Program-made: the position numbers and the translations under genes
DNA from: Mimachlamys varia
Lineage: Eukaryota > Mollusca > Bivalvia > Pectinida > Pectinidae
Reading direction: 5' to 3'
DNA length: 64,000 nt
NCBI GenBank assembly: GCA_947623455.1
Contig: OX392527.1
Coordinates: 29,256,201 to 29,320,200 of the forward strand
Notes under the pieces: generated by a model
Seen by the model: the letters and a program-made list of their open reading frames with translations, nothing else
Database searches by the model: none
Told to the model about the DNA's origin: nothing
In this document: positions 1,813-57,243 of the stretch, piece by piece
How the letters are laid out: every line of letters begins with the position of its first letter
Position numbering within the stretch: position 1 is the first letter of the stretch

Positions 1813-3440
1813 GTAGATTGTGTGATACAGGGAATTATGGTGTGGATGATGAGGGCATTATGGTTTGGATGATGAGGGCATTATGGTTTGGATGATGAGG
1901 GCATTATGGTTTGGATGATGAGGGCATTATGGTTTGGATGATGAGGGCATTATGGTGTGGATGATGAGGGTATTATGGTTTGGATGATGAGGGCAATATG
2001 GTGTGGATGATGAGGGCATTATGGTGTGGATGATGGGGGCATTATGGTTTGGATGATGAGGGCATTATGGTTTGGATGATAAGGCCGTATATGGTATATA
2101 TATGGTGTAGATGATTAGGCCATTAATAGTGTAGATGATGAGGGAAATACTGATATAGATGATGAGGGCATTTATGTAGATAATTAGGGCATTTTTAACG
2201 TAGCTGATTAGGGTATTAGGCCTAATGGTTTAGATGATATAGGAGATATTAATTATGTAGATGATGAGGGTATTAATGATGTAGATGATGAAGGTAATAA
2301 AGGTGTAGATGATGAGGGCATAATTAATGCAGCTGATAAGAGTATTAATTATTTAGATGATGAGGGTATTAGTGGTGTAGATGGTGAGGGCATTTATCAT
2401 ATAGATGGTGAGGGTATTAATGGTGGAAATGATGAGTATATTATTGGTGTAGATGATGAGGTTATAAATGATGTAGATGATGAGGTTATAAATGATGTAG
2501 ATGATGAGGGCATTAATGGTGTAGATGATGAGGGCATTAATGGTGTAGATGATGAGGGCATTAATGGTGTAGATGATGAGGATATAATTGATGTAGATGA
2601 TGAGGGCATTAATGATGTAGATGATGAGAGTAGTAATGATGTAGATGATGAGGGCATTAATGATGTAGATGATGAGGGCATTAATGGTTAAGATGATGAG
2701 GGTATTGATAGTGTATATGATGAGGGTATTAATGGTTTAGATGATGAGGGCATCAACGGTGTAGATGATGAGGTTATAAATGATGTAGATGATGAGGGCA
2801 GTAATGGTGTAGATGATAAGGGTATGAATGGTGTAGATGATGAGGGCATTAATGGTGTAGATGATGAGGGTATGAATAGTGTAGATGATGAGGGTATTAA
2901 TGATGTAGCTGGTGAGGGCATTATTCATGGTGTATATGATGAGGGTATTAATGGTGTAGATCCTGAGAGTATTAATGGTGTAATTGATGAGGGTATTAAT
3001 GATGTAGCTGGTGAGGGCATTACTCATGGTGTATATGATGAGGGTATTAATGGTGTAGATCCTGAGAGTATTAATGGTGTAATTGATGAGGGTATTAATG
3101 ATGTAGATCTTGAGAGTATTAATGGTGTAAATGATGATGGTATGAATGGTGTAGATGATGAGGGTATCAATGGTGTAGATGCTGAGAGTATTAATGGTGT
3201 CAATGATGAGGGTATGAATGATGTAGATGATGAGGGTATTAATGGTGTAAATGATGGGGACATTATACATGGTTTTAATGATGAGGGCATTTATGGTGTG
3301 GTTGATAAGGTACAGGTGATGAGAATATCGATGAGTCCATATATGTTGTGAATGATGGTGTGGAGGATACGGCCATATGAAGCCATTTATGTTACAAATG
3401 ATGAGGGCATATATGTTGAGGATGATCAGGCATGTATATA
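1813..3440. repeat. Degenerate minisatellite, 23-bp then 24-bp unit
   Basis: Tandem array of about 65 units. From about 1835 to 2085 the unit is 23 bp, of the type GGTTTGGATGATGAGGGCAT plus TAT. From about 2250 to 3300 it is 24 bp, of the type GGTGTAGATGATGAGGGCAT plus TAAT. The zone between (2085-2250) is irregular and copies decay after 3300. Because 24 is a multiple of three, this half reads open over long stretches on both strands; the + frame gives an acidic eight-residue repeat close to GVDDEGIN. A 99-bp higher-order unit (four 24-mers plus one extra codon) is duplicated at 2902-3000 and 3001-3099. A stop near 2690 splits the + frame, and there is no start or splice context, so I treat it as non-coding. 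Confidence 0.9.
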
Positions 3441-31500: not shown

Positions 31501-34500
31501 TTCATGGTCATAATGGCTATGACCATCGAGGGACATTTTTTTCGAAAATTGATCTTAACCCCCAAAAGTGTAAAATTACTCTAAATACCTTATTCGAGTC
31601 TAAGTTTATAACTCGTTTTGGAACTATGTTAATAGACATGCTTTAATTTGAGACTCTCATTATATTTTGTAGTTTTCATGTGGTTTTCTGCTTGAATCTT
31701 CAATAAAAAGAACTCTATAGCTTTACCTAAAATATGAAATATTAATTTGATCTAAAAATATTCAGTTGGATTATGTTATACACAATAGGGCTGTAATGCT
31801 TCGACATAATTACATGTTGTTTGTAAATGTGAGGTTTTATTTTGTCAAATGAATTCTGAAACTGTGGCAATTGTGTTATATTTATAAAGCCTCAATTATT
31901 GAAAAGGGAAAAGCAGAACTTTCTTTTTACTTCTCCTTTAAAAATCAAATTGCTTTCTGTATAAGCATTGGGTCTAGATATTTGTCAAATATGTAGTTTG
32001 TTCATGTGAATGGATATGAGTAGGTCTGGAAAACTGGTCACATGGATCAAATATGCTAAAATGATTGTATATATAGGTCGTCAGACAAAGACATTTCCCA
32101 TTGCTTTACTTGGTGATATCCGTTTTACTACCTTTTTTTTTATTTTGTTTTATATGTTATCTGCATATATAGGAACGCAATTTCAATCTAAAGCAAATAA
32201 TGCAATCAAATCTTCATAATTATGTAAAAAAAATCCATTTCCAATATTTGACATGATAAAAAAAGTAGTTTATCGGTTCTAAAAGCGATTCTACAGTATT
32301 TAAAATAGAAATGTACACATATATATTATAGGCAATTAAAAAGTTGAAGACATTTTTAGCATCAAAATAACAGTAATTTGATATACAAATTATCGGGGCT
32401 CTGCTATGGCACGTCAAACGTTTCAATATTAAAAAAATATATTGATTCAAAAAAAAAATATATGTTCAAAATTTACAAATATATATGCAATATTGTTCTA
32501 TATATATTCAAAAAATAAAAATATATGTGCAATATTTTAAATATATATGTGATAATTTCAATATATATATGTGATAAAACAAATATATGTGCGATATTTC
32601 AAATATATATATATGTGATAAAAAAAATATATGTTCAATAATGTCAAAATATATATGTGAAAATGAGGTAAAAAATATATACATTCAATAATTGCATTCT
32701 GGGTAATGTTTGTAAAGACGGATTTCATTGGCTGTTGCAATTCAACATGTCTGCGCCCTATTTACAACGTGCAACTCAACAAAGTAAGTATTTTTTTTAA
32801 TGGGATCAAGAAATGTGGCACTGAATAGTATAGATATCTAGCTTGGTACCTATGATCGGACGTTCTAGACAAGTTGAAATCTTTACATGTTCCCAAAAAT
32901 ATCAAAAAATAGCTACTGTACTTGTGACGTGTAAAAGTAGAGGTTTTATGAGGGGTACTTATTTTTCATAACTTAGTAGTAAGTTGGCGGTGTGTAACCA
33001 ATTAGCCGACAGGGGAGGTAATAAGTACCCGGATGTCGAACGATCAAAACTTTTGTAGTCGGACAATCTCTCGTGTTTCAGGTAAGTAACATGGATTAAC
33101 ACAAAGAAGAACAATATGGTTAACGTAGTGTTTGTCAGAAATGTCGGTCCGTTGAATTGCATGAGTAGTTATTTGGAGTTCCCGTGCGGGGGTTTTCTGG
33201 TTATTTATATGTACATGTTGGTCAGAAACAAGCCAACAATTTTGTTCCCGCCATTACCGAGCAGTATGGTGATTATGTAATCGGTGACCAGAAATGCTTT
33301 TGTATAATCATGTCCATGGTTATGAGGTTTACGATATGATAAATATTGTATTCATGTAAATTGTTATGCATTTATTCCCCGATTACAAAATTATGCTGGA
33401 TTTGAGAATTCGCCCGTTCAGAACTTTTTCATTGCAATCTCTACCCAGAGTTGTCGCGCCTTGTTCAAGTGTAGAGAAGTGCGCGGTGTAGGGCCTACAA
33501 GTATTAACAAACCAAAATGTGCGTAAAATACGATAGAAATTGTCCGACTCACGATCAGTTTACCCAGTTCCAATAACCAGAGTTGCCTACTGTACCCATT
33601 GAACTTCTACCGTTGCACAGTTACTAACAATTGGCGGGTAACAATGTTGGAAATTATTTATTGAAACTCGGTTTATGATTATTTGACTATGAGTTGATAT
33701 TAATTAATCTCGATGAAATTAATTGATGTAAATGATATTTCATAATGATGAAATGTGCATTAATTAAATAATGGACCATGTATATTAAATATGAAGAGTT
33801 AGTGATTTCTCAATAAGGTCTGAGGAATTCGAAATTTACAGTATACTGTGTTCTCATTGTATCGTGGGTTCCACTGTGACGTGGTATTTGCATATGTCAA
33901 CACTGCACATGTGCAGCTCCACCTATTGGTCGCTATTTTTGGAAGAACAACACAAAAAGCATGTTGCTCCATTTTGACCGACATGTCAAGACAACTGGTA
34001 AAAAAATAATATTAGTTTCCAAAATCATGTAATTAAAAGCCTAAAACTAATACATACCGGTACTAATTTGCGTGCCACGATACAATGGGAACTGTTTTTT
34101 CAGAGGTGAAAATAGGGTGCTTGGCTTTGAAAGGCTGTGTGGTTTTTATCTGTTGATCAATTTACATCGTTCTTTTTGTGATTTATTCTTCACTTCTTTA
34201 AGTCAATAATATAACCACACATAATAAACGAGGTGAGTGTCTTTTTTGTTTGAAAATAACAAATACATTTCCTGAAATCCATTTTTATTCAACAGTTTTT
34301 GGAAGAGTTACTGCCCTCTTGTCTATTTCAGTATTTTATTTTTGTCCGGAGATCTCTTCTCTCAGTTTTGAACCCATCTCTTTGAAACTTGGTAGATTCA
34401 AGAAGCATGATATGGAGTTGTGTTATCCTGAACGGCATATTGATTCAACAATTTTTGGTTGAGTTATTTCCCTTTTGTCTATTTCAGTATTTTAATCTTG

Positions 34501-37500
34501 TCCGAAGATCTCTCTAATTGTATAACCATTTTCTTTGAAACTTTGTCAATTACTCTTACCCTTTGTGTGTCGTAGGTTATAGGGCGTATTATGCATCCGT
34601 GGGCGGTGCTCTTGTTTATTGATTGTACATGTACATGTCTGCATGCACTCCCAGTTATGTTTCCATGCTGTCCAAATATTCACACTCGGTTCTAATGTCC
34701 AGCTGCCCACTCGATTTGTTCGGGATATCCCTACCAAATTTAGAGCCGATAATAATATATCATCTGACAACTTTGAAAGCGAGGTATACATAGTTTAGAG
34801 GAGAATCTGGGTTAATGCAGTGTGCGAATTTAACGGTAGACCGATAGACCGAGTCTAGTAGATTTGCCGTCTGTCTATGAAAAATAAATAGACAGAATGT
34901 CTATGAGGATTTTTCCATTGGTATACTGTAAAAAGTAAAAAAATGTATTAAAGGATGTTTTAAAACAGTTTAATCAACCAACAGGATTTTCCCGTAAAAA
35001 TGTGATCGATATTTCAGTGAACGGCCCAACTAGTCTCTATATTCCCAATTCTCAATATTTCCCTGGTTTTATCGGTTGTTTTCTTCTATTCAGGTCTTGG
35101 AATGTAAATGAGTAGTTCGAATGGTATTATAAATGAAAAAGAAAAAATCTACGCTGCTGGTAACAGTGGTTTATTAAAGTTGATTTTTAGTTGACGCCTC
35201 TTGTCGGTGTTTTGTATCAAAATAATCTGGCATGGTGATTATTCACCTTGGTAGTATTCAAGTAACTTCCGGTCACCTTCAGAGATGTTTCGTTTACAAT
35301 ATAACTATTCGAATCAATACTGTCAACACGTAATTCTCCTCCTCAAATTTTTGGCGAAAAAATATAGGTCTATGAAGTTTTGAGAAGGTCTATGACATTT
35401 TCAAATCCCATAGACCCATTGTCTATGAAGATAAAAATCTGAAGTTCATTGACTGTTAATGATGATCAGATTAACAAGGTACGTCTTATTGTAAATCATT
35501 TTGCCTGAACTATCTCCAAATTAAAAGGACCGCATGTATATATAGATATCTTTGTTTCCATGAGCTGTCCTTTATAGGTTTAGGTTGAAATATACAATAC
35601 ATAATCATAATATTGATAATTTTTCTATTTTCAGATAGTAACATAGAATGAGATGTTTGCTAGAGTGGTGTCTCATCCCCAAGGGAATGTTATTAAAATT
35701 CCGCTGTCTGCTGATTGCAGACTTAGCAAGGAAACACTGTGCTCTCAGTTCTCAGGAGCTGTTGGGCTTAAATATCAAACTGATGAATGTTGGAGTGCAG
35801 TGCCAGTCCAAAGCAACCATTTCATTGTGCCTCGGGGAGATCCATTGTTAGTCGTGGTATCTAACACAGCAGGTTAGTTTGTTCTCTCATCCATGTTGAG
35901 GTTTTAGCCCACTATCATCAGATGGTGGGAGGCTGTTCAAATCGCCGTTGTCTGTCGCCTGTCCTTAAACAATTAATTCTTGTTATCGCTATTACTTCAG
36001 AAGTTTGGGTTTGATCTTTCTCAAGTTTCATATTTCAGTTCCCCTTGGTCCTAGTTGCACCCTCTTGAGTTTGGGACTGATTGGAAAAACAAAATGGCTG
36101 ACAGGCGCCATCTTAGATTTTGACAATAGCTATTTCTTGAGGTTTTTGTAAAATTTCATATGCAGGTTTCTCATGGTCCCTTTATATATATATATTTAGT
36201 GCGACCATTGACAGTTATAAAGATTAAATATTATATTTCCATCTCTTTTGACTCTTAAAAGGAATATGTCATTATATTAAGTGCACATACGATGAAAGGA
36301 CGTGAAAAGATACAACTTTTAAAGAACATAAGGATCATCAAGCGATCAATGAATCGTCTGTGTTATGGCAATTACAATGTACAATGTGTTAATTATTTTG
36401 GGGCCAATTCATCCACCAATGCTCGGATGTATTTTACAAAACATGGTTACTTATATTATTACTTTAAAAAAAAAAAAAAAAAAATGTTAAGGGTAGGTTA
36501 TAATAGGCAAACAAAACAGTAGGGTACGCGTACAAGGTTCTGAAAGCAGAATTTACATAATCATTTAATTACATGCATGTATAAACAAAACTAAAGCATT
36601 GGAGCTAGTATATATGATGTATGATTTTAGGTTCTATCCTGTTTGAAAGGTACAATGTACTGTATCATTGTTGATCAACTTGTGTTTTATTTTTATGTTT
36701 AGGTGCACGGCAAATTTTGAGCAGTTCTAATAGCCAGGTTGGTTTAGCAAATCAAGTTTCAAAACTTTTCAAAAATGAAAAGACAAGCTTCCAGCCTAGG
36801 ACAACCGCACCTTACAGTTTCGATTCCAGAGGAAATGTTATGAGAAAACAAGCAAGGAATCGGGGAAAGAGCAAACAATCAAAGATCTTTTCTAAGACGT
36901 ACAAAGTGGTTTTTATAAAAGACGTGGATCTGCCGATTATATACAGTCGGAATCAAGTGTTAACTGAAGGCATATTTATTCTCTCATCAGATGATGATGA
37001 GAGGACCATTAAATCAAATCTTGTGGGAATTGTCAAAAATTGCACTGAGCTGCCCATGTCATCACTCTGACTCGAAGAAAGTGATCTCACAATTCTTTCA
37101 GCTGCATGTAAGCAACTATCTTTGCCATGTCTTCCTGATGGATTTGAGTGGGATGGAGAAAAACTCCGCACAAACATTGGACAGGGAAAACTTTATGTTT
37201 TAGTGACTTCCACAAATGCACCGGTGAGTAAACATTATATATGATCTGGCATGAATTTTCATTCATATTAGAACTAAGATGCAACATTTTGATGTACTTT
37301 TTTTAGCCCACCATCATCAGCTATTCAAATGACCTCAGTCATGTGGTTCTTCCTTAAATAATTCTTGTTAACGTTATTTCTTGGAAAGAGCTGGAGGGAT
37401 CATTCTCAAATTCCATATGTAGGTCGCCTTTGGTCGCTAGTTATGCCCATTACATTTTGAGACTGATCTGAAAAACAACATGGCCACCAGAAGGCCATCT

Positions 37501-40500
37501 TGGATTTTGCGAGTTAATTGCAGTTTGTTATCGCTATTCATTATTAAATTCCTGGAAGATAGATAACCATATTAAATGGGTCATGAGACTTCTTGTTGCA
37601 TATGGTATATTTGATATTTGTTTGCAGTTCCTTGAATTAAATTCTTGCTGTAAAATAGTTGATTTCATATTTTATTGAAGGAAGTTAATGACCCTGATGA
37701 CTTGCCAGATATCCAACCATGTGACAATGCAGGACTGGAGGTAAGAATACATATTAAATCTTGAATATTTTTGTTTCCCTTATCCATGAGGGGAAATAAT
37801 TTTTACTGTCCTGATTCGAGATGCTCTTGCCATATAGAAGTCATCACTAATCATTTGTTTTTTAACAATATGGCACATCCTTAATTATAAATGACTCCAG
37901 CTGTAAATAGGATGTACAACAATAAAAAAAACAAAAAGCATGTTTTTTAATGCAAAGCTTACTTTCAAAGCTGTGTATTATTGAAGCTTGCAGGTGGTTT
38001 GACCCAATTGTACTAATTTTCACAATGATGACACCTGTAGTCTCACTCTGCCATATCGAGGCTGCCGTCATTACCTGGTATCTACCAGACAAAATTTTCA
38101 CTCGTCTATGTAATTTTATAATATCGCCTTGAGCGGAAGACTGCTTTTTATCCGTTTTACCTGTTAGGAAGAAACCTATCCCTGTTCAAGTCAATGGATA
38201 CTCTATTGTAAGGATAATATGAAGCAATAACTTTTTGTCTTAATATTATTGTTTAAAAATTCTTGCTGTAAAATAGTTGATTTCATATTTTATTGAAGGA
38301 AAAACTGTATGTGATGGTGAAGTCATCTAAAGAACATTTACAGGTAATGTTTGAACAATATCCTTTCATATTATTCCCCTGTTGTTTGAAAATGGCAGGA
38401 CCATATGTTTCCCCTCCGTTTTTATCATCTGTCTGTCACGCACCAGTTTTCCAGACTTTTTTTCGTTGATCACTTTCGAGATAGGTATATTGAACTGAAA
38501 TTTAGACTAAATTTTAGTGGATGTCTTTCCATATTTTCAAGAAAGTAGTTACCACGACTACTTGCACAATTATATACATGTATATAGAAGATCTAACAGA
38601 AGTGTTCATGTAATATCAAAACCAGGAGTGTAATAAATTCAATATTACATGAACACGGGTGTTAGTGCCTTGTTAAAGTTTTCCTCAATACTTCTCTTTA
38701 ATGATACTTTAATGATTTTATTTTCACTAGAATGTGGCAACAGTCAATTGCATTTTTGAAAATAAAATTGACGTCATATTTATCGTTTTTATTGCATGGT
38801 AATATTACATGGGTAATCACTCAGGTGTTCTTTAAAAGATTGACAAATAATTTCCTCTCACAATTTTTGTCAAGAGTTATAATCCTTGCATTAAATGTAG
38901 ACTTAAAAGAATTTTGTCAAGAGTAATAAATATAAGGCAAGAATAATGGATGAAAAAAAATTCTACTAGACGACAAACGGACAATTTATGACAGATAGGC
39001 CTCGTCAGTGCCGGAACATATACGTAGTGGAGGCAGGGTATGGATAAGTGTATAGGTATACATAAAATATATGGGTTTGTGAATATAAGTTAGCCTGTTG
39101 CCTTCAAGACTTTGTATGAAGATAAGAATGGACATGCATGTGATTGAGAAAATTATGTATTCAATTCTTTTCTATTTGTATTACAATGCACTTTGTATAA
39201 GGATATTTGGAATGAAAACTAACATACAATAGAAATACATGAATATTGGCATTTAATATAGATGTTTGTTTTAGAGTGTATTGAAGAATTTTACATTCAT
39301 CTTGGAATTTGAAATCATTTTAACAGATGGTATTCAGGAATTTTGCACTCAGCTTGGATAAGTAAGATTAAGAAACAAGCAAGCTAAAGCACAACATGAT
39401 TGCCCTTGCTTTTTAATTCGTATTTCACTTTTCTAAATTCATATATACATTATTTACCAATATTAATTTCAGTCCTCCTTGACAGATCAACGACCTACAC
39501 CGTCTAGATCTGCAGACGAACAGCAAGCACCATCAACAGACACACGGCAAGCACCATCAACAGACACACGGCAAGCACCATCAACAGACCCACGGCAAGC
39601 ACCATCAACAGTCCCACGGCAAGCACCATCAACAGACACACGGCAAGCACCATCAACAGTCCCACGGCAAGCACCAACAGCGGACCCTAGGCAAGCACCA
39701 TCTTCAGATCTAAGGCAAGCACCGTCAGCAGACCCTAGGCAAGCACCATCAGTAGATCTAAGGCAAGCACCGTCAGCAGACCCTAGGCAAGCACCATCTG
39801 CAGAGCTAAGGCAAGCACCGTCAGCAGACTCTAAGCAAGCACCATCGGTAGATCTATGGCAAGCACCGTCAGCAGACCAAAAACAGGCAACCTCTGTAGA
39901 ACCAAAACCAGGTTGTAGTTCAATGTTGACTTTGGTGAGTTTATAGTTGAACAATTTAATGCTCCAATGCATCATAAAACTTGTAAAAATGGAAGATGCT
40001 GCTCATTTTTGAGGCTAAATAAATTAAAACACCATGTTCAGCAAGTCCTAACATGTTTTTATAAGCAGACATATTGGTAAATGGTCGATTGTAAAATAAA
40101 ATACACAGTGTGATTGTACTTTTAAAAAACTGTACAGTAGATAATTACAATGTATAGTACGTAGTATGTTTGTTGTTTAAGCTCACCTTGGTCGAAGGAC
40201 CAAGTTGAGTTTATGCTATACCTTTGCTACCGTCTGTCCGTCAACTCATCAACAATTGACCGCTGATCGGAATTTGACCAAATTTGGTGAGGCTGACCCC
40301 CCAGGGGCCTGAGGGGTGGGCCCAAAATAGGGTTTAACCGGGACAAAATTGCAACAGAATATATTTTTAGTTTTTTTGAAAGGTTGATACCTATACTTTC
40401 GTAGAAAAAAAGTCCTAAGAAATCTTCCTTTGGGAAACTGTTTTTTTCGCACAAATTAGGGGTCAAGAAATTTAGCATAATTGCTTACTGGGCCAACTTT

Positions 40501-43500
40501 GAAGTGGAATTACTTATCATTAGACAATTGTGATTGTGAAATGAATAGCTATATTTCATAACTAGTTTATGTATAACATAGATTAACTCAAAATACTTTT
40601 ACTGGTATGTCATGTTGACAAAATATTGATCTATCAATATCGTTAAAAATCCTTTTTACTTGACAATAAGTAACTTTTTCACATTTTAGATGCAGAAAAT
40701 ATCATTTAATAATATCCGTAACAAAATAAGTTCATATTTAATCTATAAAATAAGTGCATTTAATTTAATTGTTTAATTAGACTGATGATTCATTTACATA
40801 CAAAAAAAGTTACTACCGTATTTATCCGCCAATAAGCCCATGCCTGGTAATAAGCCCACCCATGTCTTTTGCAGTTCAGTAGAAATCCCAACCAATGTTA
40901 TTTCATTGTCCTGCAATAAGCCCACCCCCTACTTTGAGTCAAAGTTTATATCTTGGCCCCCTGGGCTTATTGCAGGATAAATATGGTAAACATCAAAGTC
41001 GTCAAAATGTCCTGATTTTGCACGTTTTCAAAGTCCATATTGAATGCTTTACATATTTCTTTCACTTTTGATTTAATTATAAGAAAGGCAAATGCTTAAG
41101 TTATTCTTATTTTCATTAAAGTATAAGTACTTCCCATGGGCTTTTTGTTTTCATTATTATGCAAAATTTATGATAATTGCAGAGAATCCAGCATTGAAAT
41201 CATTGATTCGGAGGATGAAGAATTACAAAGAGTTCTTGACGAGAGTCTACGTGAAGCAGTTGAGTAAGTTCCAATGCCCCTGTCATAGTCTGCTTAAATA
41301 TTGCCAATATTTGTATGCTGCTATTATAGATCAGAGTGTAACCATGAAAGGTATTTTTTGAAAACTTGATGTTTGTCATAGGAATAAGGGTTCATGTTTG
41401 ATGGCCAAATGTTCAAAGGTGATATTTAATGGTCACCGTGAACAATTAAGTTGAATAATTTGTTAATGGGTGGGCCAAATTTGATCAAACATTGAACAAG
41501 ATGGTAAGGGGTTCATATTTCTATTAATTGATGGGAATGGCCCTGTTAGGGGAATAAGCAAATCATTTTCCTGCTAACCAAATAATCAAAGTCCGTTCCG
41601 AATGGTCAGTTTGACCACTTGCCTTGTTCGGGAAAGCCTGATAAAAATAGTGCTGATTACATGCCCTGATGCCTCTTCATTATTTAAAAGAAGTAGTTTA
41701 TGCTCTCTGATTTCATTCTACAGAAGTACACATAGTCTACCTTCCAAAGGCATGAAAGCAGTTTTAAAAGACTTGAAAGGCAAAATCAACATGTTTGACA
41801 CACAAGAGATAACCATCAAACGCAGAAATGTCCTTGGAAGTGTTTTCAATGCTCTTAGAAGGTCTTCATTTGATCCAACATGCAAGTTATATGTCAAATT
41901 CAGCGGAGAATTAGGACTGGACCATGGAGGACCAAGAAGGGAGTTATTTAGGTAAATGCCTTTGGAAATCTCTCCATTCCAGAAACTCCCCAAGATAGGT
42001 TTGAACCACTATTAAGTTAAATATTATTAGTTTAATGAAGCAAGCTTGGTGATGGTGGGTTATTCAAATTACTCTGTGTCCGTGGTCCATCCGTAAACAA
42101 TTCTTGTTATCGCTATTTCTCACAAATAACTTAAGGGATCATTCTAAAATTACACATGCAGGTTTCCCTTCGTCCTTAGTGGTGCATATTGCATTTTATT
42201 GTTCTAAGGATAAACAACACATGCTAGGTTTAGTGATGCTGGATTTGACCTATATTTTCTGCTTGAATGATCATGTTTGAGGACTATGTGATGATAAGGT
42301 TAGGAAGAATGGATGAGTCAGTTGTGAAGTAACAATAATACTTCACAACTGCGACTTCTGGCTGGTTCAGAAACATTATAATTACATCTATAAATACTGA
42401 AAGATTAGTCCAGATTAATTATTTTACACAAATTTCCATTTTCAATAATTACTATAGAGCTGCTGATTAATGTATATATATATATGTTTGTTATAACTTT
42501 CATTTCTGAATATAAGTTTTAATTATAATTATCATTCAAAACTATTAGATCGATTGACTATTAATTAATTGGCTTCCTTATGAAATACCAAAGTTACTAC
42601 TTTATATTTTAATATACATTTTTGCCACTTGTGTAATTAGGAATATGGAGAGGGCTTATATAGGCTGTGCCTGTTGCCCAATCCCATTGACAATTCATCA
42701 TCAAATGTCAATAAAATTTGTTGAAATGAAAGTAACAATAAGTCCTACAATAATCCAACTAAATTACATATGGCTGATCTATCCAAGGATACACATCACA
42801 TTCTAGGGTTTGGATATATATACTTGACATTGGAAAGTTTACTTCTTTTTGTTTATTTCAAAATCTGCATGTTTTTACTGGCCACTTTAAAAGAGTTATG
42901 TAGAGGTTTATTGAACATTATTACTTGACATTTTTCGTGAATATTCATGATATTGTATAGTTATAGTGTATACTACACAGCAAATATAAATTACGAATTA
43001 TATGTGTACAGGCAAGCATTGGGTAGCTTTGACACCATCTCTGGTTTCAAGAGCACTTACCCATGCAACTTGGACATGAATTTACATACCGGTAGCTCTG
43101 TGGTGAAGTGAGATATTGATATCTAACAACTGAAAACTTTCCTATTTCATTACACAACACATTGACATTGTGTTTTTTAAGTATAATACCAGATTTCTTT
43201 TAGAAATGTGATTAGGGGTCAACAAATTGAAATTGAACACAGTATTGGTATGTGTTACTCCAGTGTAATTCCACAATTTCACATATTATTGAGTTTTGGA
43301 AAATATCTGGAGTTCGAGTCATAAGATATGAATCTAAAAAATTTCAAAATTACCAGTATTTGATTCCTATCAAGTTGCATACTTACCTAATACAATATAC
43401 TGATCATCATTTGACAGTTACATTGATTGAATTAATATGAACGTTTTGGTGCAGTGAAAGTAATGAATGAAACTTAACAATTCTGTCCTTAAGCAGCAAT

Positions 43501-46500
43501 TGAGTGATAGCTGTTAGAATTCCCAGAGATCTTATTGAGCTTTTGCAGTGTTCAAGAACTTGCCTTTGTTTATGTTTTTGCTTGCAGCTAATTTCACTTT
43601 CTAGAAATTTACTATGAAGTTGGGTTTGTAATTAATTATGTACCACATACTTGTAGTATAGTTTTATATAATCATTTTATTGTGTAACTGACATATGACA
43701 TACTTGATCATTTAGAACATCATTTTCACTTTAATATTTTTGTATAGATTAGCAATTAGAGAACTAGCTACCAGCAGCCTTTTTGAAGGGGGAGCAAAGA
43801 GCAAAGTATTCAGCCATAATCTGCAGAAACTTGAGGAAGGGCATTATGGTTTTGCTGGAGAATTAGTTGGCATCAGTCTTGCAAATGATGGACCAGGGAT
43901 CTGCCTTTGCGAGGAATTGTTTGCATGTATGACAGGAGTAGCTGAAATTGTGTTGACTGACATATCGATAGTCCCAGATGCAGACAACAGAGAGGTCCTA
44001 CAGGAAGTAAGTTCATATAATTGTCACTGGTCAAGTTCTCGGATTAGAGCCATAATAAAGGGTCAAATTTTCAAGGTTTATTTTTTCAAAGCTTCTTCTT
44101 TAAAACAAATTGAACAGTTTAGTGGATTTCAAATAATTTTGACATGAACATCTAGTAGGGACATGTATTTAACACCAATGTACTCACAACCTGGGGTCAA
44201 AATATTTTACTGCTAAATGTTTGATAGTTTATGTTGCGCGATATCCTTCAGGAAAGACTTCTGGATTGAAGAATGTACATGTATATGAATTTGATCTGTA
44301 GACATAAAATAAATGCAGACATGCGAAGTTTCAACTATTTATAAAAAATGGTCATTTAATTGTTGCTCAAGGTATTCTGGGACCTAAAATACAAGCAGTT
44401 GTACTGCTCATGTGAACTGAGTTTTATGTTTTGTGAAAATACATCCATTCATACCTATATTTATTTAAGTTAATATACTTTGTAAGGTAAAATTAAAATA
44501 TTGCATTTACATTGATACCTCACCAAGCCCTGAAGATGATGTATATTCTGTTGTTTGTTTTTCCTAAGCTAAAGAACATTGCAACAATGGATGAGAGGGA
44601 TACTTTTTTGGCTAAACGAGGAGATTGGTTAGTTGACCAAGGCTTTCAAGGAGCATGGAATTTGGGGATAGGAGAGGTTGAAAAGGCAAAGGCTATAGGC
44701 TTTCTTGTGAAGCAGCAGATATACTACAGGTGAAATAATATCAATAAGTATATATACTTAAGTCCCTGGGATAATAAATTCTAACATGCCTAGAGAACAA
44801 ATAATAGCAATACTACTTTTTCTAAACAACTGTCTTAACGATGTCGTTTATAATACTAGTTATGACATTCGGGTGGTCATTAATTTTCCAAAATGTGTTA
44901 CGTCTGTACTGATCTTCAAAAAAGTGTCACCAATGGAGCGTTCTAAATTAATTAAGAAATGATTTAATTTATACTTCAAATTTTTGGGCTGTTGTGGAAA
45001 TGTGACAATAACTTCATCAGCATAAGAAATAATGAAAATCCCTTAATCATTGGTTTTGTATTTAACATCACTTTATCACACTGTTCATCAGTCTGACCTT
45101 CTTTTGTGAGCATTACTTACTGGTTTGAGTGTATTCAATTGGTAACTTTTTCATTTATTTGAGACAAATTTCTAAATTTCAAATGGGTTATGTTGGTGAA
45201 CTTGAAGAATAGAATTGCTTTTTGAACAATTAAACACATCTACAATCTGTAAATAACATGCCAATGTTATTTTGACCAAAAAAAAGTAATTTTGAGTTAC
45301 ATCCCTTTTTGTTTTATGTAGGATATTGTATGATCTATTATTGTACATTTCCATTCCAGAACTTCAGCTGAAGTCAACCAGTTCTGTTCAGGTATGAACA
45401 AGGTCTGTGGTTTGTGGGATTTGATCAAGAAAGATCCAAGTTCTTGGAAGACTGTTTTTTGCGAGACAAGAATTGTTACCAAAGCCTTTTTTCTTGAAGA
45501 AATTCAGGTTGTATACAGTGCAGAAGGAAGCAATAGGCGGATGAAGGAGGATGACACCATATATTCCTGGGAAATCTTTCTGCAAGACATAGAAGGTATA
45601 ATTGAGCCCCGAATCAGAGATACAGGTGCCCTTAGTAATCAGGTTGTAAATTTGATTTTGATAAATATTTTATTACAATGTTATGAAATAATCAAAAAAT
45701 AAAAATCAACTAACCAAACCTCAAAGTCAATAGTCAAAGGTCAAGGTCATATTTTACCATTTTTTCCTGGTAAACATTTTGTTATATAAACATTATGAAG
45801 GAATATTGGTCGAAAAATAAAAGGAAAATAGATGTCAACTGGCCAAACCTCAAGGTCACTAGGTCAAAGGTCAAATTTTACCATTTTTTCCTGGTATAAA
45901 ACACTTTGTTATAGTTCTGACAGTTATTTTTTTTTTATTTTAACCAACTTTAATAATGTTAAACATTATTTATTAAAGTTGGTTAAAATAAAAAAAAATA
46001 ACTGACCAAACCTCAGTCATCAGATGAAAGGTCAAGGCCAAATTTTACATTCATCAACTACATAACATTGTTATAAAATTTTAGTTTAAAAATATTTCTT
46101 CTTTTTAAACCATAATCTTCCAAGTATAGTTGAGCATTAATCCTCACAATCATTATTTTGTTTCCATTTCAGAAAAGGCAGTTGACATTACCTTCGGTGA
46201 TCTTCTTGGCTTCATTACAGGAGCAGATGAAATTCCACCAGCCGGATTCTCAACAAAAATTTACCTTGAATTTTATGATTTGGAGCCTCCTGAATTAAGG
46301 TTACCACATGCTTCAACATGTGCTTTAACTTTGCACATTCCAAGGGCTTGTGAAGTGGATCAGTTACAGCGACTTATGTTGACAGCTGTGAAAGAATGCC
46401 AGGGATTTGGAAAATGTTAATCATGTTACGTGAAACTGTACAGTTAGTACACATCTTTTAATGAAAACTGTTTTAATTATACATTTTAGCTCACCTAACC

Positions 46501-49500: not shown

Positions 49501-52500
49501 AGGTCACAGGTCAAATTGTCCATCTATACTGATCAAAATGGTATATGTTTAATCACGACGCACGCACAACGAACGAAACCCTATTACATTAGCTCAACTG
49601 AGCTAAAAAAAAGGGTTTGTTGAAAGTTGAAACTGGGAGATCTCTGGACGAACGAAAGTTTTCCTCCGGTTGAACGGACGGACAGATAACGCCATATATT
49701 TACAAGTATTTTTTTGACAGGCGTATGAAAACACCATTAAGGTTTCAGTACACATGCATGTAACAGGCATACCAGTACTTCAGAAAAACAGTACAGATAT
49801 AATATATATTACCGTAATTGTAATTTGTCCATTCTATACACATGTACTAAAAACACTTGATTTTTTTTTTATAACTTGTGCCATATTCCAATTTTGAACA
49901 ATATTTTAATGAAGAGAGAATAAAACAAAGACAGTTTCGTAATTTTCTTCTGATAAAATGTTTTGTTCAATACTGTGGTGGTGTCAGCATGAATTGTCCA
50001 ATTCACTGTAATACTGTAAATAAGAGATATAGTTTACATGTTTAAGAGAGACTGAATATACTGTCTAACTGCAATATAAATATCAACACCATAATCTTCA
50101 CTGTATTCTACTGGATCAAAGTGAGCTTGCAAAGCATTTATCAGGGTTTCTTGATCCACTTGAACATCTGGAATTACAATTGGATTTGAATTATCTTGGT
50201 TCTCTGTATATGGAAGCTCCTCAAAATCAATTCCGTACATAACATCATCAATGTCTTGATTCATCATCCCACTTACAGCTGTTATGTCCAACCCATTTCC
50301 CTGAATCATTCCATTTGTCCATATCTTGTGAGGTGACCAGTTGTGCTCACTTCTGATACCATGGCGATTGTATGCCTCGCTAAACTCTTTTAGTGAATGA
50401 TTTATACGAGGCAAAAATACATAATGTAAGCAGAAAATGTCAGTTTCATTGTCAGTATCCAACAACTCCAGGTTCTCCAAGTGATAAAATAGGGCATAAT
50501 AAGTCTGAATCACTGCATAGTATACATCACGCCAAAGTCGTTCTATTCTGCTATTATGAACGGATCTTCCAGCTATAAAGCTTCCCCTATTAGTACCTCG
50601 GAAATCTTCCATGAAATGTGCAACATCAACATTTTCACTGCCTTTGTCTCCTCTTACTCTTGATGGAATTCCATATTCATTAGTTGCATCCAAAAAGAGC
50701 TTTAAAACAGTGGCTGCTCTATTATTGTAAGAACACTTCAGATAAACAATCAACCTGCTAAAACCATCAATTGCTCCATGTGTTACCATTCTCCATCGAA
50801 TGAGTGCATGATGCCCATCCATATGCCACAAACTATTTGGTCCCGGTACACTGTATGATCTTCTTTTTGCTACAAGCCCCCATCTTAAGACTGAACTTGC
50901 AGGGTCAATTGTGCGAAGGGCTTGTCTAACCCGTTTTTGCTGCACATGAATGTCTTTGGCACGCAGATGACCTATCATCATGGTGATTCCACAGTGAGGG
51001 TGATTATGATATATGCTGTGGATTTCTCTGAGCAACTGTTCATCATCTAAATCAGAGTATCGAGTCATAGTAACATTACTTTCCTTCAATCTTCTCCAAA
51101 GTGTGGTTTTACTAATCAAAAACATATTTGATATATCTATCAGTGTGAATCCTTGAGAATACAAGAAGACAGTTTTTTCCATTTCTATCTGAATATAAGG
51201 TCTCCCTGGTCCATTAGAATAAACATTTGATGTGCTCAAACTTGCAAGTGAAGTGGTCAAAGTACTACCAATGCGTATGCAAATTTCATCCCATGTAGAT
51301 TGAAGACAATGGAAAACAAGCAGCAATGTTTGTATAGAATGCAGCACACTATTACTTTCTTGATGGGTCTCCCTAAAATACGCCATAGGAGAAAATACGC
51401 CATAGGTACGCCATAGGATATTTTCGGCGCCATAGATAAATGAACGTAATATATCTTCAAAATACATAATTATATTCCTTGATTGGTGCATATTACACCA
51501 TCTGGTGAAGTTTCATTGAAAAAAAATGTGTACTTTGTACCAAAAAAACGATCTTATATCGGAGGCTCTCAGACACTAAAATACGCCATAGGAATCTAGT
51601 CAAGCAAGTGTTAAATATCACTGTTTTATGCAACAAATAACTGATTAACTACAGTTATATATGTCATTTGAAAGTTATGGTTAAGTTTAACTGTTAAAAA
51701 AATGTGCACTTTGTAAGAAAATCGGTAAAATTACCGTGACGTGAAAGTCCGAATCAAGGGGCGTAACTCTAATTATACGCCATACTCGCTCTCTCTTTAT
51801 ATACTATTGGTAATCCTATGGCGTATTGAAGACTATATATTTCCTATATTGATATTTATTTTGTTCATTAATACACTCAAGCATTATATTAAGTACTGAA
51901 AAATATATATACCTAAAAAGCACAACAAAAACTTTCTATTTGATACCATTTTCTATGTTATATTAAGACTATGTATTTTTGATATTAATATATTTTTTTA
52001 TTCATTTATTTACAAAAACATTATTTTTGTTACTTAATATATATGATATAAATACATGTATGCATACATAAAAAACACAACAAAAACTTACATTTTATAC
52101 AATTTTATTAATATTTTTTTCATAAAAAAGTATTCACACGCAGTAATTAACATGAACATATATCGTAAAACATTATGTATAATTTTGCAAATAATTAATA
52201 TTCATCAAATTCACTATATTGAAAATTCCATTGATATTTTATATCATCCAGGTACATATTTTAGATAATAGAAATTATATTATCTAGCATTCACAAATAT
52301 AAATCCTGGAATAAAAATAGTATTTTCATGAATATAATAAAAATACATAATGTAAATTTGTAAATTGTAAATGAATGGAAAAAATGGAAAAATTTCACTG
52401 AAACTTCCTGATAATGTCATAAGCTGATATATATCACACTATCAAATTTTACGTCTTATAATAGTATTCTTCACGTATGTTTATTACTGTTTCTTTCCTT

Positions 52501-54493
52501 TTTCTTACGCTTCGTTGTCTTTCAAAGTCAATACCTTTCTTTGTCTTTTCTTTTTTTTGTTATTTGTTTTGCCTCCATGATTCCTTCTTTTTCTGTTTTC
52601 ACTTCACTGTTTTTTGCCTCTTATTTCCATGATTTCTTATAGCAATACAGTAGAAATCTTGACAAACAACAATTGTTTTTAAGTCAGATATCAATATAAG
52701 GTATTTATTTATAATGGATGAACATTGTTCCTGTATAATATTGTAATGTTGGCATACCCAGTTTGCATGAATATTGATGTACACAACTGGTACATATTGT
52801 AGTACTGATAATGTATGAATATTGGTATGCTAAGGCGTTACCGTGGTATATACTATAGTATAGTTACAGTCTACATTGATACTCACTCCATAACCATTGT
52901 ACTGCAAACTAGAGTTATTTTCCACCAACTATACTTGAGAACGTGCAAAATTTCTATAACGTCGACAACAATATATGTGGGCGGAGCTATGCAAATTATC
53001 CCGTTCGAATCACAATTGTATGACGTCATTAACAATTGACATGGGCAGAGCTAGCTACGGCTTATGCAAACTTCATGCTGTTACATTTATTGAACTGTTT
53101 TCACCTTTGTAAGTTTGGAAATGAAATATATGTCTGCAGATGGGGCTAAATTGAACAGAAATACTGTAAATATAAGGATTAACCTTTGATTTTGTTTAGT
53201 TTATTAGATCATAAATCCAATGGAGCCGTCGGTAAATTTAACGTAAACGCTTTGCGTTTACGCAATTTACCTCGTGCGTTGGAAAATTGGTTAAGAAATT
53301 CCAATCAATCATCAGTTAAAATTGGTTGTAATCAGATTGTTAACATAATGAAATTTAGATTTTTTTTTGCCTTACAACAAATACCAATAATCAAATCTGT
53401 ATTGGTGGATCATCTGCTGCTGTCTGACTGAAAAACCACAACATCAACATGTACTTGAGAGGGAATTATCCTGGGGACTATGGCCACCAACTTGTGCACT
53501 TCTATGACTCTAGACTGTACACAGCTTTATGCCCTAAGACAGCCATTTCTTAGACATTTGTAGATTTCTTTTAAAGGCCCAATATACGTAACTTCAGGAA
53601 ATATTTCGTCAATCTGAAAAATTCTGAAAAAAATCCAGTTGATAACCATGCAAAAATAAACCTAAAACGAAGTAAACCTGAGCGGTAACTAACGAGAAAC
53701 TCCAGACAGAAAAATCCAAAGAATTGAAAATAATTAAAGTGGGGCCCACTTCAATAACAAACCGCACGCAGAAGACAGTCAAAATGGTCGCGTGTTTACA
53801 AATATCGAGTTTCAACTGCTGCCGTACCGGTCACCGCGTAAGAAGTCATCTTGGATATTGCTTATATCAGTTAATCTTAACTAAATCTATAAAAATAATA
53901 AGTTATTAGGCTTGATTTTCGCATCAAGTTTTGCCGAAAGTTACGTTTATTGGGCCTTTAATTTGCAGCATCCAAAATAGATTAAGTAAATATTGTTTGT
54001 GTGAATTAATGTAGTAATGCCTTTGAAATTGAATACACATAATTATGTGAAAATGAATTTGATAAATATATATATGTTGAAATAGAGTATAGATATGTAA
54101 TAAATGTGATGAAGAAATAATTCAAATTTAAATATAAATTTAATATAATTGTTTGTTTATTGAACTCTTCACTCAGAACAAAAAAGTTTTAATATGTGAA
54201 TAAAGATATAAATATCAATGATATTATGAGATGAATGTTTTGTGTTTATGAAATCTGCCATGATGCTTCACAGAGTATTTATGTATAGAAATTTTTATTG
54301 CAATTATATGAATTAAAAAAAATCTGAATGAAATCTGATGTATGCAAAAATGATCATTTAACGTGGAGTTTTTATTTTGTGCATGTACCATATTGTTTAT
54401 ACACTGTATTTATTAGTATGAAATGTATTGTTTGTGCACAGGGGTTTGTACTTAATGTTTATGATAAAAATAAAAAAAATATAGCCGTGATCA

Positions 54494-54529
<36 letters not shown>

Positions 54530-56861
54530 TGGTCACAGCTGTATTTTTTATTTGTATCATGAACATTCAATACAAACCCCTATGGTTTGTGTAAAAAAAA
54601 AAAAAAATAAATTAATATCAAATGTAAATAAATATATTATATATTGATTGACCAATCCATGGGAGAAAATACAACATAGTTAAAGATATATATTGGCATT
54701 TTTTTTATGAATGTGGTAATTTAATAAAATGTGTATAATGATGAATAAAATCATTATTAGTAAAATTATACATAAATAATATTTCTTTTTTTTTTATTTT
54801 TCCCTTATATTTTTTTTATTTTTTTCCCCTTATCAATTAAAATTTTATTATTTTTTATTCCATTTTAAAAATATGAATGAAATTTTCCCTTTCAGGGTTG
54901 ATATCTGTATGGCGTATTGTTCATGTCATTTACAGCTTGTGAATATATCTTTATGATTAAATAGTAACATAGGTATTAATAAAATGGTATCAATAAATAA
55001 TTTTGTTGTGCTTTTTATGTATGTTTATTTGTTAGCATTAAATATAATGCTTGAGTGAATTGATGAACAAAATAAATATCAATATAAACAAAAATGTTGT
55101 CTTCATTATTTATTGGTCACTTAACAGGAGAAAATACGCCATAAGATTGCAAATAAATAGTATATAGATAGACCGAGTTTACATCTGTATGGCGTATAAT
55201 TAGAGTTACGCCCCTTGATTTGGACTTTCACGTCACGGTAATTTTACCGATTTTCTTACAAAGTACATATTATTTTAACATTAAAACTTAACCATAACCT
55301 TCAAATGACATATATAACTGTAATAAATTAGTTATTTGTTGCATAAAACAGTGATATTTAACGCTTGCTTGACTAGATTCCTATGGCGTATTTTAGTGTC
55401 TGAGAGCCTCCGATATAAGATCGTTTTTTGGTACAAAGTACACATTTTTTTTCAATGAAACTTCACCAGATGGTGTAATATGCACCAATCAAGGAATAAA
55501 ATTATGTATTTTGAAGATATATTACGTACATTTATCTATGGCGCCGAAAATATCCTATGGCGTACCTATGGCGTATTTTCTCCTATGGCGTATTTTAGTG
55601 TGACCGTTCTTGATCATATTGATAACTGTGAATATCTAGAATATAAAGTTCAATAAATTCAAGTGCATGGACATGTCTTCGAAGGTTTTCTTGACAATAC
55701 TCAATCTCCCCTGCTGTCAAGTTTGTTTCAAGTGCCCTTTCTTCACAAAAAGTTAACAAGGCTTCCAAGGAGGAAAAAAAGGCTAAGAAGTCGGGAAACC
55801 CTCCATTAACCATGTAACTGCCATCTTGATCTTCAAATTCCATAATTTTGTTCTGCAATGTAAAAACATAACGTGGATTTGATATGTGTAAAATTACTAT
55901 CAAATGAAGTAGCACACATGTTCAATTATTTCCATAATACATAATTTACCAACATCAAGTAACAATTTTAAGTATTAAAACATGAATAACGAATGTGTAA
56001 AACCAAAAAAAGCTTGCAATACATACATTACAGTATCTACCCTGCCATTCCACCGACATAACAACAGAAAAACAAATCAAACTTACTGGCAAAAGGTAGC
56101 ATGGGAAGTTTTCCTGGTGGAACTGTGCCTTTCAATAAAAAACCAGCGAATGTAATATAGGCCTATACCGTAGCTGCGCTCTCCATCGCGGCAGCATGCC
56201 CGGTTACAAAGCAACGTGAGCGCAGACATGTTGAATTGCAACAGCCAATGAAATCCGTCTTTACAAACATTACCCAGAATGCAATTATTGAATGTATATA
56301 TTTTTTACCTCATTTTCACATATATATTTTGACATTATTGAACATATATTTTTTTTATCACATATATATATATTTGAAATATCGCACATATATTTGTTTT
56401 ATCACATATATATATTGAAATTATCACATATATATTTAAAATATTGCACATATATTTTTATTTTTTGAATATATATAGAACAATATTGCATATATATTTG
56501 TAAATTTTGAACATATATATTTTTTTTTTGAATCAATATTTTTTTTAATATTGAAACGTTTGACGTGCCATACTCTGCATAAAAAGATTTCTTAAATAAT
56601 AATAATAAAATAGAAATATATATTTATATAGCTTAACCCAACATTAAAAAAAAAACGAAGGTACATGTATTATACTTTACACGACAGACTTTCTTAAATA
56701 GGGTTAGTAATTCCCATATCACCGGTCGACTTACCTGTGATAAAAACTACTTTTCCATGTGGTTCTACTATTCTTGATCTTCGAATATGCATAAAAATAT
56801 AAATTCCCAAACAACAAACAGCTGACACAATCAACAATGAAACATACATATCTACACACAT
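28508..56861 (-). CDS. Short-chain dehydrogenase/reductase (17beta-HSD6/RDH/BDH1-like), 5 exons
   Basis: NAD(P)-dependent SDR of the SDR9C-like group, which acts on steroids, retinoids or hydroxybutyrate; the substrate is not decidable here. Exons, in order on the minus strand: 56861-56735, 30899-30690, 30208-30026, 29354-29222, 28844-28508. Lengths 127, 210, 183, 133 and 337 give 330 codons including stop, all phases agree and all junctions are GT-AG. Exon 1 encodes a hydrophobic signal-anchor ([18 protein letters not shown]) followed by GKVVFITG. Exon 2 completes the cofactor motif as TGCDTGFG. Exon 3 has [10 protein letters not shown] and NVASLAG. Exon 4 has the catalytic YSATK, with Tyr at 29323-29325 and Lys at 29311-29313. 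The 329-residue length is normal for the family. Intron 1 is 25.8 kb and is almost entirely the transposon at 32405-56572. The start ATG follows an in-frame stop a short way upstream. Confidence 0.9.
29624..29997. mobile_element. MITE in SDR intron 3
   Basis: Inverted arms of about 125 bp: GCGTTATGCGAAAT outermost, then TGGTCTTTATTATTCTGACA and AGAAATGTTATAA. The internal loop is about 100 bp. It ends 29 bp from SDR exon 3. Confidence 0.85.
31431..31592. repeat. Foldback MITE with poly-C
   Basis: AAGGTGTTTAGAGTAATTTA at the left is found inverted at the right; the inner arms share TTAGATCAATTTTCG-type sequence. A run of about 13 C lies in one arm. It belongs to the same family as 24416-24580. 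Confidence 0.7.
32399..32404. repeat. Left target-site duplication CTCTGC
   Basis: Six bases directly outside the left terminal repeat, identical to 56573-56578 just outside the right one. Confidence 0.88.
32405..32756 (+). repeat. Left terminal inverted repeat (iteron-rich)
   Basis: It starts TATGGCACGTCAAACGTTTC and ends AACATGTCTGCGC. A 183-bp stretch (32558-32740) is identical at translated level to the inverse of 56236-56418. The central part is about eleven degenerate copies of an AATATATATGTG-type motif spaced about 20-26 bp. The inner end is less AT-rich and includes an ATTGGC (inverted CCAAT) box at about 32728. Confidence 0.9.
32757..35634. other. Space between left TIR and first HECT coding exon
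   Basis: No coding exon recognised. A donor-like AAAG/GTAAGTA at about 32782 could end a non-coding first exon that starts at the TIR edge and splices to the acceptor at 35634. A partial tandem duplication of about 180 bp lies at 34262-34540 (repeated CTTTTGTCTATTTCAGTATT). Confidence 0.45.
35653..46420 (+). CDS. HECT E3 ubiquitin ligase with UIM-like motif (transposon cargo), in-frame stop
   Basis: HECT ligases take ubiquitin onto a catalytic Cys and pass it to a substrate. Exons: 35653-35872 (coding part of a segment opened at acceptor 35634), 36703-37223, 37681-37740, 38299-38343, 39473-39934, about 41183-41263, 41724-41951, 43748-44006, 44569-44729, 45360-45595, 46173-46420. From the UIM exon to the stop all phases agree. 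The exon at 41183 encodes [20 protein letters not shown], a good ubiquitin-interacting motif. The HECT N-lobe has [18 protein letters not shown], and the C-lobe has [17 protein letters not shown] with the catalytic Cys codon at 46319-46321. Exon 39473-39934 is a 24-bp coding VNTR (RQAPSADP type). Problems: a TGA at 37068-37070 is in frame with continuing coding sequence on both sides, and the exon ending at 39934 (phase 0) does not match the UIM exon, so an exon may be missing or the copy decayed. The HECT part resembles the expanded G2E3-like genes of fish, corals and molluscs. Confidence 0.8.
35897..36185. repeat. Interspersed repeat, copy 1 (three copies in HECT introns)
   Basis: It starts TAGCCCACTATCATCAGATG and shares TTCTTGTTATCGCTATT, AAATGGC and GCCATCTTAGATTTT stretches with 37303-37515 and, more weakly, 42045-42230. 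A common intronic repeat; no ORF. Confidence 0.7.
37303..37515. repeat. Interspersed repeat, copy 2
   Basis: Same family as 35897-36185: AGCCCACCATCATCAGCTAT at the start and GGCCATCTTGGATTTTGC at the end. Confidence 0.7.
37638..37680 (+). repeat. Duplicated splice-acceptor segment, copy 1
   Basis: A stretch of about 42 bp (AATTCTTGCTGTAAAATAGT...TTTTATTGAAG) directly preceding the exon at 37681. It is repeated without change at 38256-38298, directly before the exon at 38299. Confidence 0.9.
38256..38298 (+). repeat. Duplicated splice-acceptor segment, copy 2
   Basis: Identical to 37638-37680, offset by 618 bp. Both copies serve as 3' splice sites of short HECT-gene exons that begin with GAA. 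Confidence 0.9.
39525..39895 (+). repeat. 24-bp coding VNTR in the HECT gene
   Basis: About 15 units of a 24-bp repeat such as CGGCAAGCACCATCAACAGA plus a few bases. Each encodes an eight-residue unit of the form [16 protein letters not shown] or RQAPSVDL. Two sub-types are clustered: CGG-CAA...ACAGAC units first, AGG-CAA...GCAGAC units later. The antisense strand is also open across the array, which is a by-product of the period. Confidence 0.93.
40180..40500. repeat. Interspersed repeat ('agctcaccttggtcgaaggacc' family)
   Basis: It starts AGCTCACCTTGGTCGAAGGA, a form seen widely in bivalve DNA, and includes GACCAAATTTGGTGAGGCTG. A related start (AGCTCACCTAACCCCAAGGT) occurs at 46488. Confidence 0.55.
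40816..40986. mobile_element. Small MITE
   Basis: Ends CCGTATTTATCCGCCAATAA and, inverted, CCATATTTATCCTGCAATAA, about 170 bp. It lies between the VNTR exon and the UIM exon of the HECT gene. Confidence 0.8.
41560..41665 (-). repeat. Fragment of the TTAA MITE family
   Basis: It matches the inverse of about 47560-47655 (AATAATCAAAGTCCG and TTCGGGAAAGCCTGATAAA blocks). No ends are present. It sits in the HECT-gene intron before 41724. Confidence 0.8.
45720..46040. repeat. Partial tandem repeat plus hairpin in the last HECT intron
   Basis: AGGTCAAGGTCATATTTTAC and TTTACCATTTTTTCCTGGTA recur at a spacing of about 115 bp. A strong palindrome with about 40-bp arms (AGTTATTTTTTTTTTATTTT and its inverse) lies at 45922-46003. 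Confidence 0.75.
46488..47170. other. 3' flank / UTR of the HECT gene
   Basis: No ORF. It begins 68 bp after the stop with an interspersed-repeat start (AGCTCACCTAACCCCAAGGT) and leads to the poly(A) signal at 47181. Confidence 0.5.
47181..47186 (+). terminator. Candidate poly(A) signal of the HECT gene
   Basis: AATAAA in AACAATAAAAGCTTTCTG, 761 bp after the HECT stop codon, on the coding strand. Confidence 0.45.
47351..47707. mobile_element. piggyBac-like MITE with TTAA duplications
   Basis: Ends AGGGGCATGCCGCGAAAGC and, inverted, AGGGGCATCCCGCGAAAGT. It is flanked by TTAA at 47347-47350 and 47708-47711. It is 357 bp, with no ORF. A fragment of the same family lies at 41560-41665. Confidence 0.88.
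47968..48720. repeat. Tandem repeat of about 136-146 bp with AGGTCAAGGTCA motifs
   Basis: Starts AACAAGAGGCCCATGGGC. Four to five units follow, marked by AACTTTGTAGCA at 48136, 48282, 48418 and 48563. Each carries GACCTTGA..GTAGGTCAAGGTCA. The array ends GCGTCAGATGACCTAAAAA. Confidence 0.8.
48891..49611. repeat. Second 'acaagaggccca' repeat
   Basis: Starts CAACAAGAGGCCCAATGGGT, contains AGGTCAAGGTC and repeated CATATAGGTCACAG(G/A)TCAAAT segments, and ends AGCTCAACTGAGCTAAAAAA. Related to 47968-48720. Confidence 0.6.
53575..53957 (+). mobile_element. piggyBac-like MITE, copy 1 (nested)
   Basis: Ends AGGCCCAATATACGTAA and, inverted, AGGCCCAATAAACGTAA. TTAA flanks at 53571-53574 and 53958-53961. 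383 bp, no ORF. About 90% similar by eye to 62531-62916. Confidence 0.92.
54440..54581. repeat. Palindrome around an (AT)n core
   Basis: AGGGGTTTGTACTTAATGTT at the left and its inverse at the right, with arms of about 55 bp that continue through GATCAGCATATATA into an (AT)n core of about 30 bp. Confidence 0.9.
56220..56572 (-). repeat. Right terminal inverted repeat (iteron-rich)
   Basis: Reverse complement of 32405-32756, one base longer; ends GACGTGCCATA. The inner edge (GCGCAGACATG) faces the integrase gene and carries a CCAAT box (CAGCCAATGAAA). Confidence 0.9.
56573..56578. repeat. Right target-site duplication CTCTGC
   Basis: Identical to 32399-32404. Directly adjoins the right terminal repeat. 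Confidence 0.88.
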
Positions 56862-57243
56862 GCCTGCTGTATTGGTAATAATGATTATAACTCCTAATTA
56901 ATGAACGCCCGGTTGTATGGTCCAGGTAGTGTGATCGTTGATAGGACAACACACTCCATTTCAAACAAATCAAGAACACTTGTCAAGACATGTACTGTAC
57001 ACGAACAGTATATATCGCATAAAGGGGAAAGAAAACAATTTTTAATAAATTAAATTAAAATCGTAGATCCGAACAGTAATTTCGATTTTGTGTATGCTGT
57101 ACATGTGCAGCTTGATGTGTCCGTCATGTAAACGAGCCAACAGTAGGCCTAAGTGTGCATCAGCCGTGACACGTGCACGTGGTGACTTGTTGTGAAGAGT
57201 TCAGCATGCGGAGGTAGAAAAAGTACGCGTTGATACCAACAAT
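56862..57243. promoter_or_regulatory. Divergent intergenic region, SDR / DNAAF5
   Basis: 382 bp separate the SDR start (minus strand) from the DNAAF5 start (plus strand). The right part is richer in G+C and CpG than its surroundings (CACGTGCACGTGGTGACTTG near 57170). No TATA is seen close to the DNAAF5 start. It probably serves as a shared, bidirectional promoter. Confidence 0.5.

Follow-up and report, generated by a model that had tools for sequence, protein, structure and literature searches.

A 24-kb DNA transposon, probably of IS3EU/GingerRoot type, with a convergent HECT E3 ligase gene in the bivalve Mimachlamys varia

Structure of the element and its two genes

The window analysed in this study is a stretch of 64,000 nucleotides from the genome of Mimachlamys varia. 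As shown in Table 1, it contains an element of about 24 kb with terminal inverted repeats (TIRs) of 352/353 bp and a 6-bp target site duplication (TSD), which together span 32399-56578. An earlier note on this DNA had described the two TIRs and the CTCTGC motif flanking them, and both were borne out: the alignment of the left and right TIRs had 354 columns, no mismatch and 3 gap bases, and CTCTGC was present at both ends. The insertion was flanked by minus-strand exons that, read by eye, resembled those of SDR genes (30616-30918 and 56697-56897), and a DNAAF5 exon was located about 0.6 kb away from the element. Elsewhere in the window, a 24-bp unit forms a 1.2-kb array with a strong GC skew at 2093-3310.

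Table 1. Coordinates of the element, its genes and the nested insertion in the window.
Feature	Position	Strand	Remark
Target site duplication, left	32399..32404	.	CTCTGC
Left terminal inverted repeat	32405..32756	+	starts TATGGCACGTC
HECT gene, N-terminal exon region	35647..35874	+	TDP-43_N-like domain, PF18694, 2.1e-10
HECT gene, second exon region	36703..37223	+	putative borders, from splice-like sites
HECT gene, probable spacer exon	39470..39934	+	24-bp repeats (QAPSADPR..); putative exon, from splice-like borders
HECT domain exon 1	41724..41951	+	putative borders
HECT domain exon 2	43748..44006	+	putative borders
HECT domain exon 3	44569..44729	+	putative borders
HECT domain exon 4	45360..45595	+	putative borders
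HECT domain exon 5	46173..46420	+	catalytic cysteine (LPHASTC), PF00632 2.9e-13
Integrase-type transposase, main part	50034..51364	-	PF24764 rva_4 6.5e-88; D, D, E conserved
8-bp duplication at nested element, left	51357..51364	.	TTCTTGAT
Nested inverted-repeat element	51365..55606	.	4,242 bp; interrupts the transposase gene
8-bp duplication at nested element, right	55607..55614	.	
Transposase N-terminal piece, from ATG	55607..55843	-	cut off from the main part by the nested element
Right terminal inverted repeat	56220..56572	-	terminates ..GACGTGCCATA
Target site duplication, right	56573..56578	.	CTCTGC

The element carries a HECT E3 ligase gene and an integrase-type transposase gene that are convergent. 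The earlier note had already placed an integrase and a HECT gene between the TIRs. The identity of both was confirmed by their Pfam domains (Table 1), and their extents were revised: the integrase was found to include an N-terminal piece, and the HECT gene to start further upstream. The best relative of the HECT protein was P0122 of the oyster Saccostrea, in which a TDP-43_N-like domain is followed by the HECT domain in the same order as in the window gene. The catalytic Cys was kept in all 14 aligned HECT sequences, including that of the window. The window HECT gene has one in-frame stop (37068-37070), which lies in the N-terminal region; in C7 and C11, the two further copies read at this position, the frame was open.

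The transposase gene is interrupted by a nested element that was missing from all eight other copies read at this place, each of which has one copy of the 8-bp sequence. The nested element, which may be Merlin-like, has long imperfect inverted repeats with GG..CC-like ends (CGGTCACAC.. and GGGTCTCCC..). Since it has no long open frame, it is probably non-autonomous. The residues D190, D247, and E282 of the transposase were invariant in 37 sequences. Its structure model had a pLDDT of 80.7, and the top structural matches were a retroviral intasome (2.9e-06) and IstA (8.6e-06), with TM-scores of 0.2-0.3 over the query. A search of solved structures by sequence gave no real match, and viral contigs, scanned once with the integrase, yielded nothing. 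Among the family's 14 transposase loci, 7 had an uninterrupted frame of 545 aa, and the rest were stopped, broken up, or shorter, the window copy being shorter. With the nested insertion in its transposase and the stop in its HECT gene, the window copy has damage in each of its two genes. Copies open at the transposase split and copies open at the HECT stop exist elsewhere in the genome.

Copies of the element and evidence of movement

The 975-Mb genome was searched with the left TIR, and the best 40 of 47 matches were scored. Twenty-eight of these were 98-100% identical, the window ends included. The element family comprised 15 loci, namely 13 full inverted pairs, a copy on C11 whose right TIR is just 41 bp long, and a copy on C6 (12.6 Mb) with a single TIR end. 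Exact and mutually different 6-bp TSDs were found at 10 of the 13 full pairs and were missing at C13, C3 (36.0 Mb), and C3 (38.9 Mb). The termini TATGG..CCATA were present at 25 of the 26 TIR ends of the full pairs, the exception being the altered left end at C13. At C3:36048748 and C3:38939152, both without matching duplications, the 6-mers of the left flanks were reverse complements of each other (CGATAC / GTATCG). This could reflect a 2.9-Mb inversion between the two copies, but the right flanks do not fit.

The joined flanks of ten insertions were used in a search for empty sites. Paralogous empty sites were found for three of them (C6 13.5 Mb, C17, and C4 57.3 Mb). These three insertions sit in repeats, and other copies of the repeats cross the join with a single duplication; for C4 57.3 Mb there was one such place, which was 93% similar and had 7 extra bases. 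No empty site was found for the other seven insertions, the window's own site included (best 40 of 1,337 candidates). The earlier note had proposed a giant DNA transposon, to be checked by further TIR copies and empty sites. The 15 loci, their TSDs, and the empty sites uphold the transposon and its copies, and the empty sites were recovered in part, as paralogous sites for other insertions and not for that of the window.

Indels aside, the left and right TIRs of an element differed by at most one substitution in 11 of the 13 pairs, and two substitutions were counted in each of the remaining pairs. This near-identity suggests that the elements moved recently. Long colinear blocks of the nine other copies read inside were 98-100% identical to the window. 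Six of these nine had deletions that removed the HECT gene's 5' part and kept the transposase. Two of the six, at C12 and C3 38.9 Mb, had a common deletion junction (33189|42647) with different flanks, so the deleted form itself was moved or copied. The presence of one deleted form at two places suggests that the HECT ligase is not needed in cis. The C11 copy had no transposase side and the C6 (12.6 Mb) copy had no HECT side. Overall, the transposase was present at 14 of the 15 family loci, the 3' exons of the HECT gene at 14, and both genes at 13.

Two further observations were made on these copies and their relatives. Near window position 41133, the C17, C4 (57.3 Mb), and C7 copies had about 3.95 kb of extra DNA compared to the window copy, and the C11 copy had about 1.8 kb extra close to the same position; this DNA is either an insertion that the copies share or a piece that the window copy has lost. 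At C7:5213638, C18:4285301, and C18:4324001, the distance between TIR relatives (68%) and HECT matches (41%) was about 8.6 kb, with the same polarity as in the window, and no rva_4 match lay beside them among the matches listed.

Relation to known transposon superfamilies

IS3EU elements have been in Repbase since 2013. They have TA..TA termini and usually 6-bp TSDs (PMC10045372), and fungal members are described with the termini TAYGG..CCRTA (PMC12730594). The window element is alike in its TA..TA termini, which are of the fungal type, in its 6-bp TSD, and in its integrase-like DDE transposase. Since the termini, the TSD length, and the transposase type match, the window element is most likely a member of IS3EU/GingerRoot, an assignment made by hallmarks rather than by a tree. 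For the same reasons the separate class of transposon considered in the earlier note was not retained (PMC10045372, PMC12730594). However, the window element differs in its size of about 24 kb, its 352/353-bp TIRs, and its HECT E3 gene. Fungal TET+ IS3EU families, as described in PMC12730594, likewise have a second gene opposite to the transposase, an alpha-kinase, with TET between them. Their cargo is a kinase and a dioxygenase, whereas that of the window element is a ubiquitin ligase. The superfamily and the fungal IS3EU cargo were already known, and the new part is the HECT partner gene.

Ginger1 elements also tie an integrase-type transposase to the ubiquitin/SUMO pathway, through OTU and Ulp1 (PMC2836005). 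However, they have a 4-bp CCGG/CCGT TSD, TGTNR ends, and a length of 2.6-7 kb, whereas the window family has varied 6-bp TSDs and TATGG ends. In Ginger1 the protease is fused to the transposase, while the window element has a separate ligase gene.

The earlier note had also considered a reduced relative of Polinton/Maverick, which would have kept the integrase and the long TIRs. Long TIRs, shared by the window element, are a feature of Polinton/Maverick elements. These elements also have a 6-bp TSD and a size of 15-25 kb (PMC10045372, PMC6431247), and the window element resembles them in both and in its RVE-fold integrase. However, the window family differs in its TATGG..CCATA termini and in having no PolB match in any copy. 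Of the 18 PolB (PF03175) matches found genome-wide, every one lay more than 1 kb away from all 15 family loci, and no virion or PolB domain was present in the 21 element open frames scanned. The transposase was assigned to rva_4, as were the best 120 of its 2,602 relatives. The Polinton relative was rejected on the termini and the absence of PolB from the copies, and we regard a reduced Polinton as highly improbable.

The HECT gene as a partner of the transposase and its possible role

Close HECT exons of the window family were found at 14 loci, all inside elements. The only other HECT places scored with the window-family query were on C13 and C18, and these were 34-42% alike. In a second family, the transposase was 37% identical to that of the window family. 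The one copy of this family that was read was 20,386 bp long and had TATGG TIRs starting TATGGAACGCC, a CAAAAC TSD, a SAM-HECT gene, and a convergent transposase. The HECT gene was located about 5 kb from the transposase at all 11 loci of this family. A weak tblastn lead to a SAM domain in the family-2 transposase was unconfirmed by direct comparison with the family-2 HECT or by Pfam. An intronless open frame, named by eye as casein-kinase-1-like, lies at C4:31481881-31482801, 2.5 kb outside the family-2 element. No TIRs of a third family turned up in the two stretches examined.

The pairing was examined genome-wide among the matches listed, which were collapsed by hand into at least 96 rva_4 loci and at least 84 HECT loci. 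An rva_4 locus was called strong at 235 bits or more. A HECT match was present beside 32 of the 35 strong loci, at 4.1-11.9 kb, and the two were convergent in all 32 cases. The number expected by chance was 0.18, a figure that assumes independent loci, and 25 of the 35 strong loci come from the two families (14 + 11). The other ten appear to form further groups or singles and were 38-49% identical to the window transposase P0001. No HECT match was found at the strong loci C6:12601020, C13:26930045, and C6:13615564. The weaker rva_4 loci had a HECT partner at 1 of 61 (0/24 at 100-235 bits; 1/37 below 100 bits, at 22.8 kb and non-convergent). Because families 1 and 2 supplied two of the HECT queries, more distant HECT genes beside the weaker loci could be missed. 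The occurrence of the same convergent pair at 32 of the 35 strong loci suggests that such elements probably carry the ligase as a standing component, which would help them spread.

The pair may also be present in the oyster Saccostrea cucullata. The transposase encoded by LOC134283391 matched at 53% over 86% of the query, and the HECT protein of LOC134283390, which was the best HECT match outside this genome, at 55% over 68%. Their neighbouring gene numbers and equal contig size indicate that the two likely lie together on one contig of 41,066 bp. The earlier note had predicted that integrase and HECT genes are paired elsewhere; this was seen within the present genome and is likely in the oyster. 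A second HECT search with alignment returned eight proteins and no further pair. Among the papers listed in literature searches, we found none joining IS3EU and HECT and no transposon with HECT cargo, although an earlier Repbase record is possible. A word look-up did not find HECT in the text of the coelacanth paper that it covered (PMC4255032).

We consider it very probable that the window holds a DNA transposon of IS3EU/GingerRoot type with a resident, convergent HECT E3 partner gene. From what is known of the family, the transposase would bind the TIRs and move the element, cutting the target DNA with a 6-bp stagger by DDE chemistry, and copies deficient in one of the genes would be moved in trans. 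The ligase is predicted to act in trans via its N-terminal domain, which is TDP-43_N-like in the window family and SAM in family 2, and to ubiquitinate, and thereby mark for destruction, host factors that restrict transposition or keep the element silent. Host restraining factors as the target are the least sure step, with about even odds; they are preferred because the targeting end differs between the families.

The main rival is that the ligase acts on the element's own transposase, for its removal from the joined ends or for its dose, rather than on host factors. The strict convergent two-gene pairing over families down to 37% transposase identity is in its favour, as is the opposite activity carried by Ginger1 transposases in their OTU or Ulp1 domains; the authors of that study suggested a role of the ubiquitin pathway in transposition (PMC2836005). 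However, in family 2 no alignment was found between the SAM domain of the HECT protein and the transposase, and we judge this rival possible but rather doubtful. The HECT gene might instead be a host gene caught by chance by one element and carried as neutral cargo, which would agree with the loss of its 5' part in six of the nine copies read and of the whole HECT side in one more. We find this quite unlikely, since the pair recurs in sequence-divergent families with convergence in every case, is likely present in the oyster too, and has retained the catalytic Cys throughout the aligned sequences.

A wider proposal can be put forward tentatively, at slightly less than an even chance. Animal IS3EU elements would be two-gene machines in which, across families, a dedicated HECT E3 is inherited along with the DDE transposase. 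The 'G2E3-like' HECT genes that are multiplied in aquatic animals would then largely belong to transposons and manipulate ubiquitination so that the element can move. The element appears to be a natural case of a transposon that keeps its own ubiquitin ligase, and the role of ubiquitination in transposition, an old question, becomes testable.

For one genome, the present data offer a concrete source of multiplied HECT and integrase-core genes: 32 of the 84 HECT loci (collapsed by hand, among the matches listed) adjoin a strong rva_4 locus. Such HECT genes are marked as parts of transposons and not as expansions of host E3 genes. Two multi-copy HECT groups were observed without a strong rva_4 nearby among the same matches. 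One was at C10:19717979, C18:25211456, C5:46868405, C17:5506443, C18:4522013, and C18:21403900, and the other at C15:21809818, C16:27832302, C18:1173113, and C35:18991; both may ride on other transposons.
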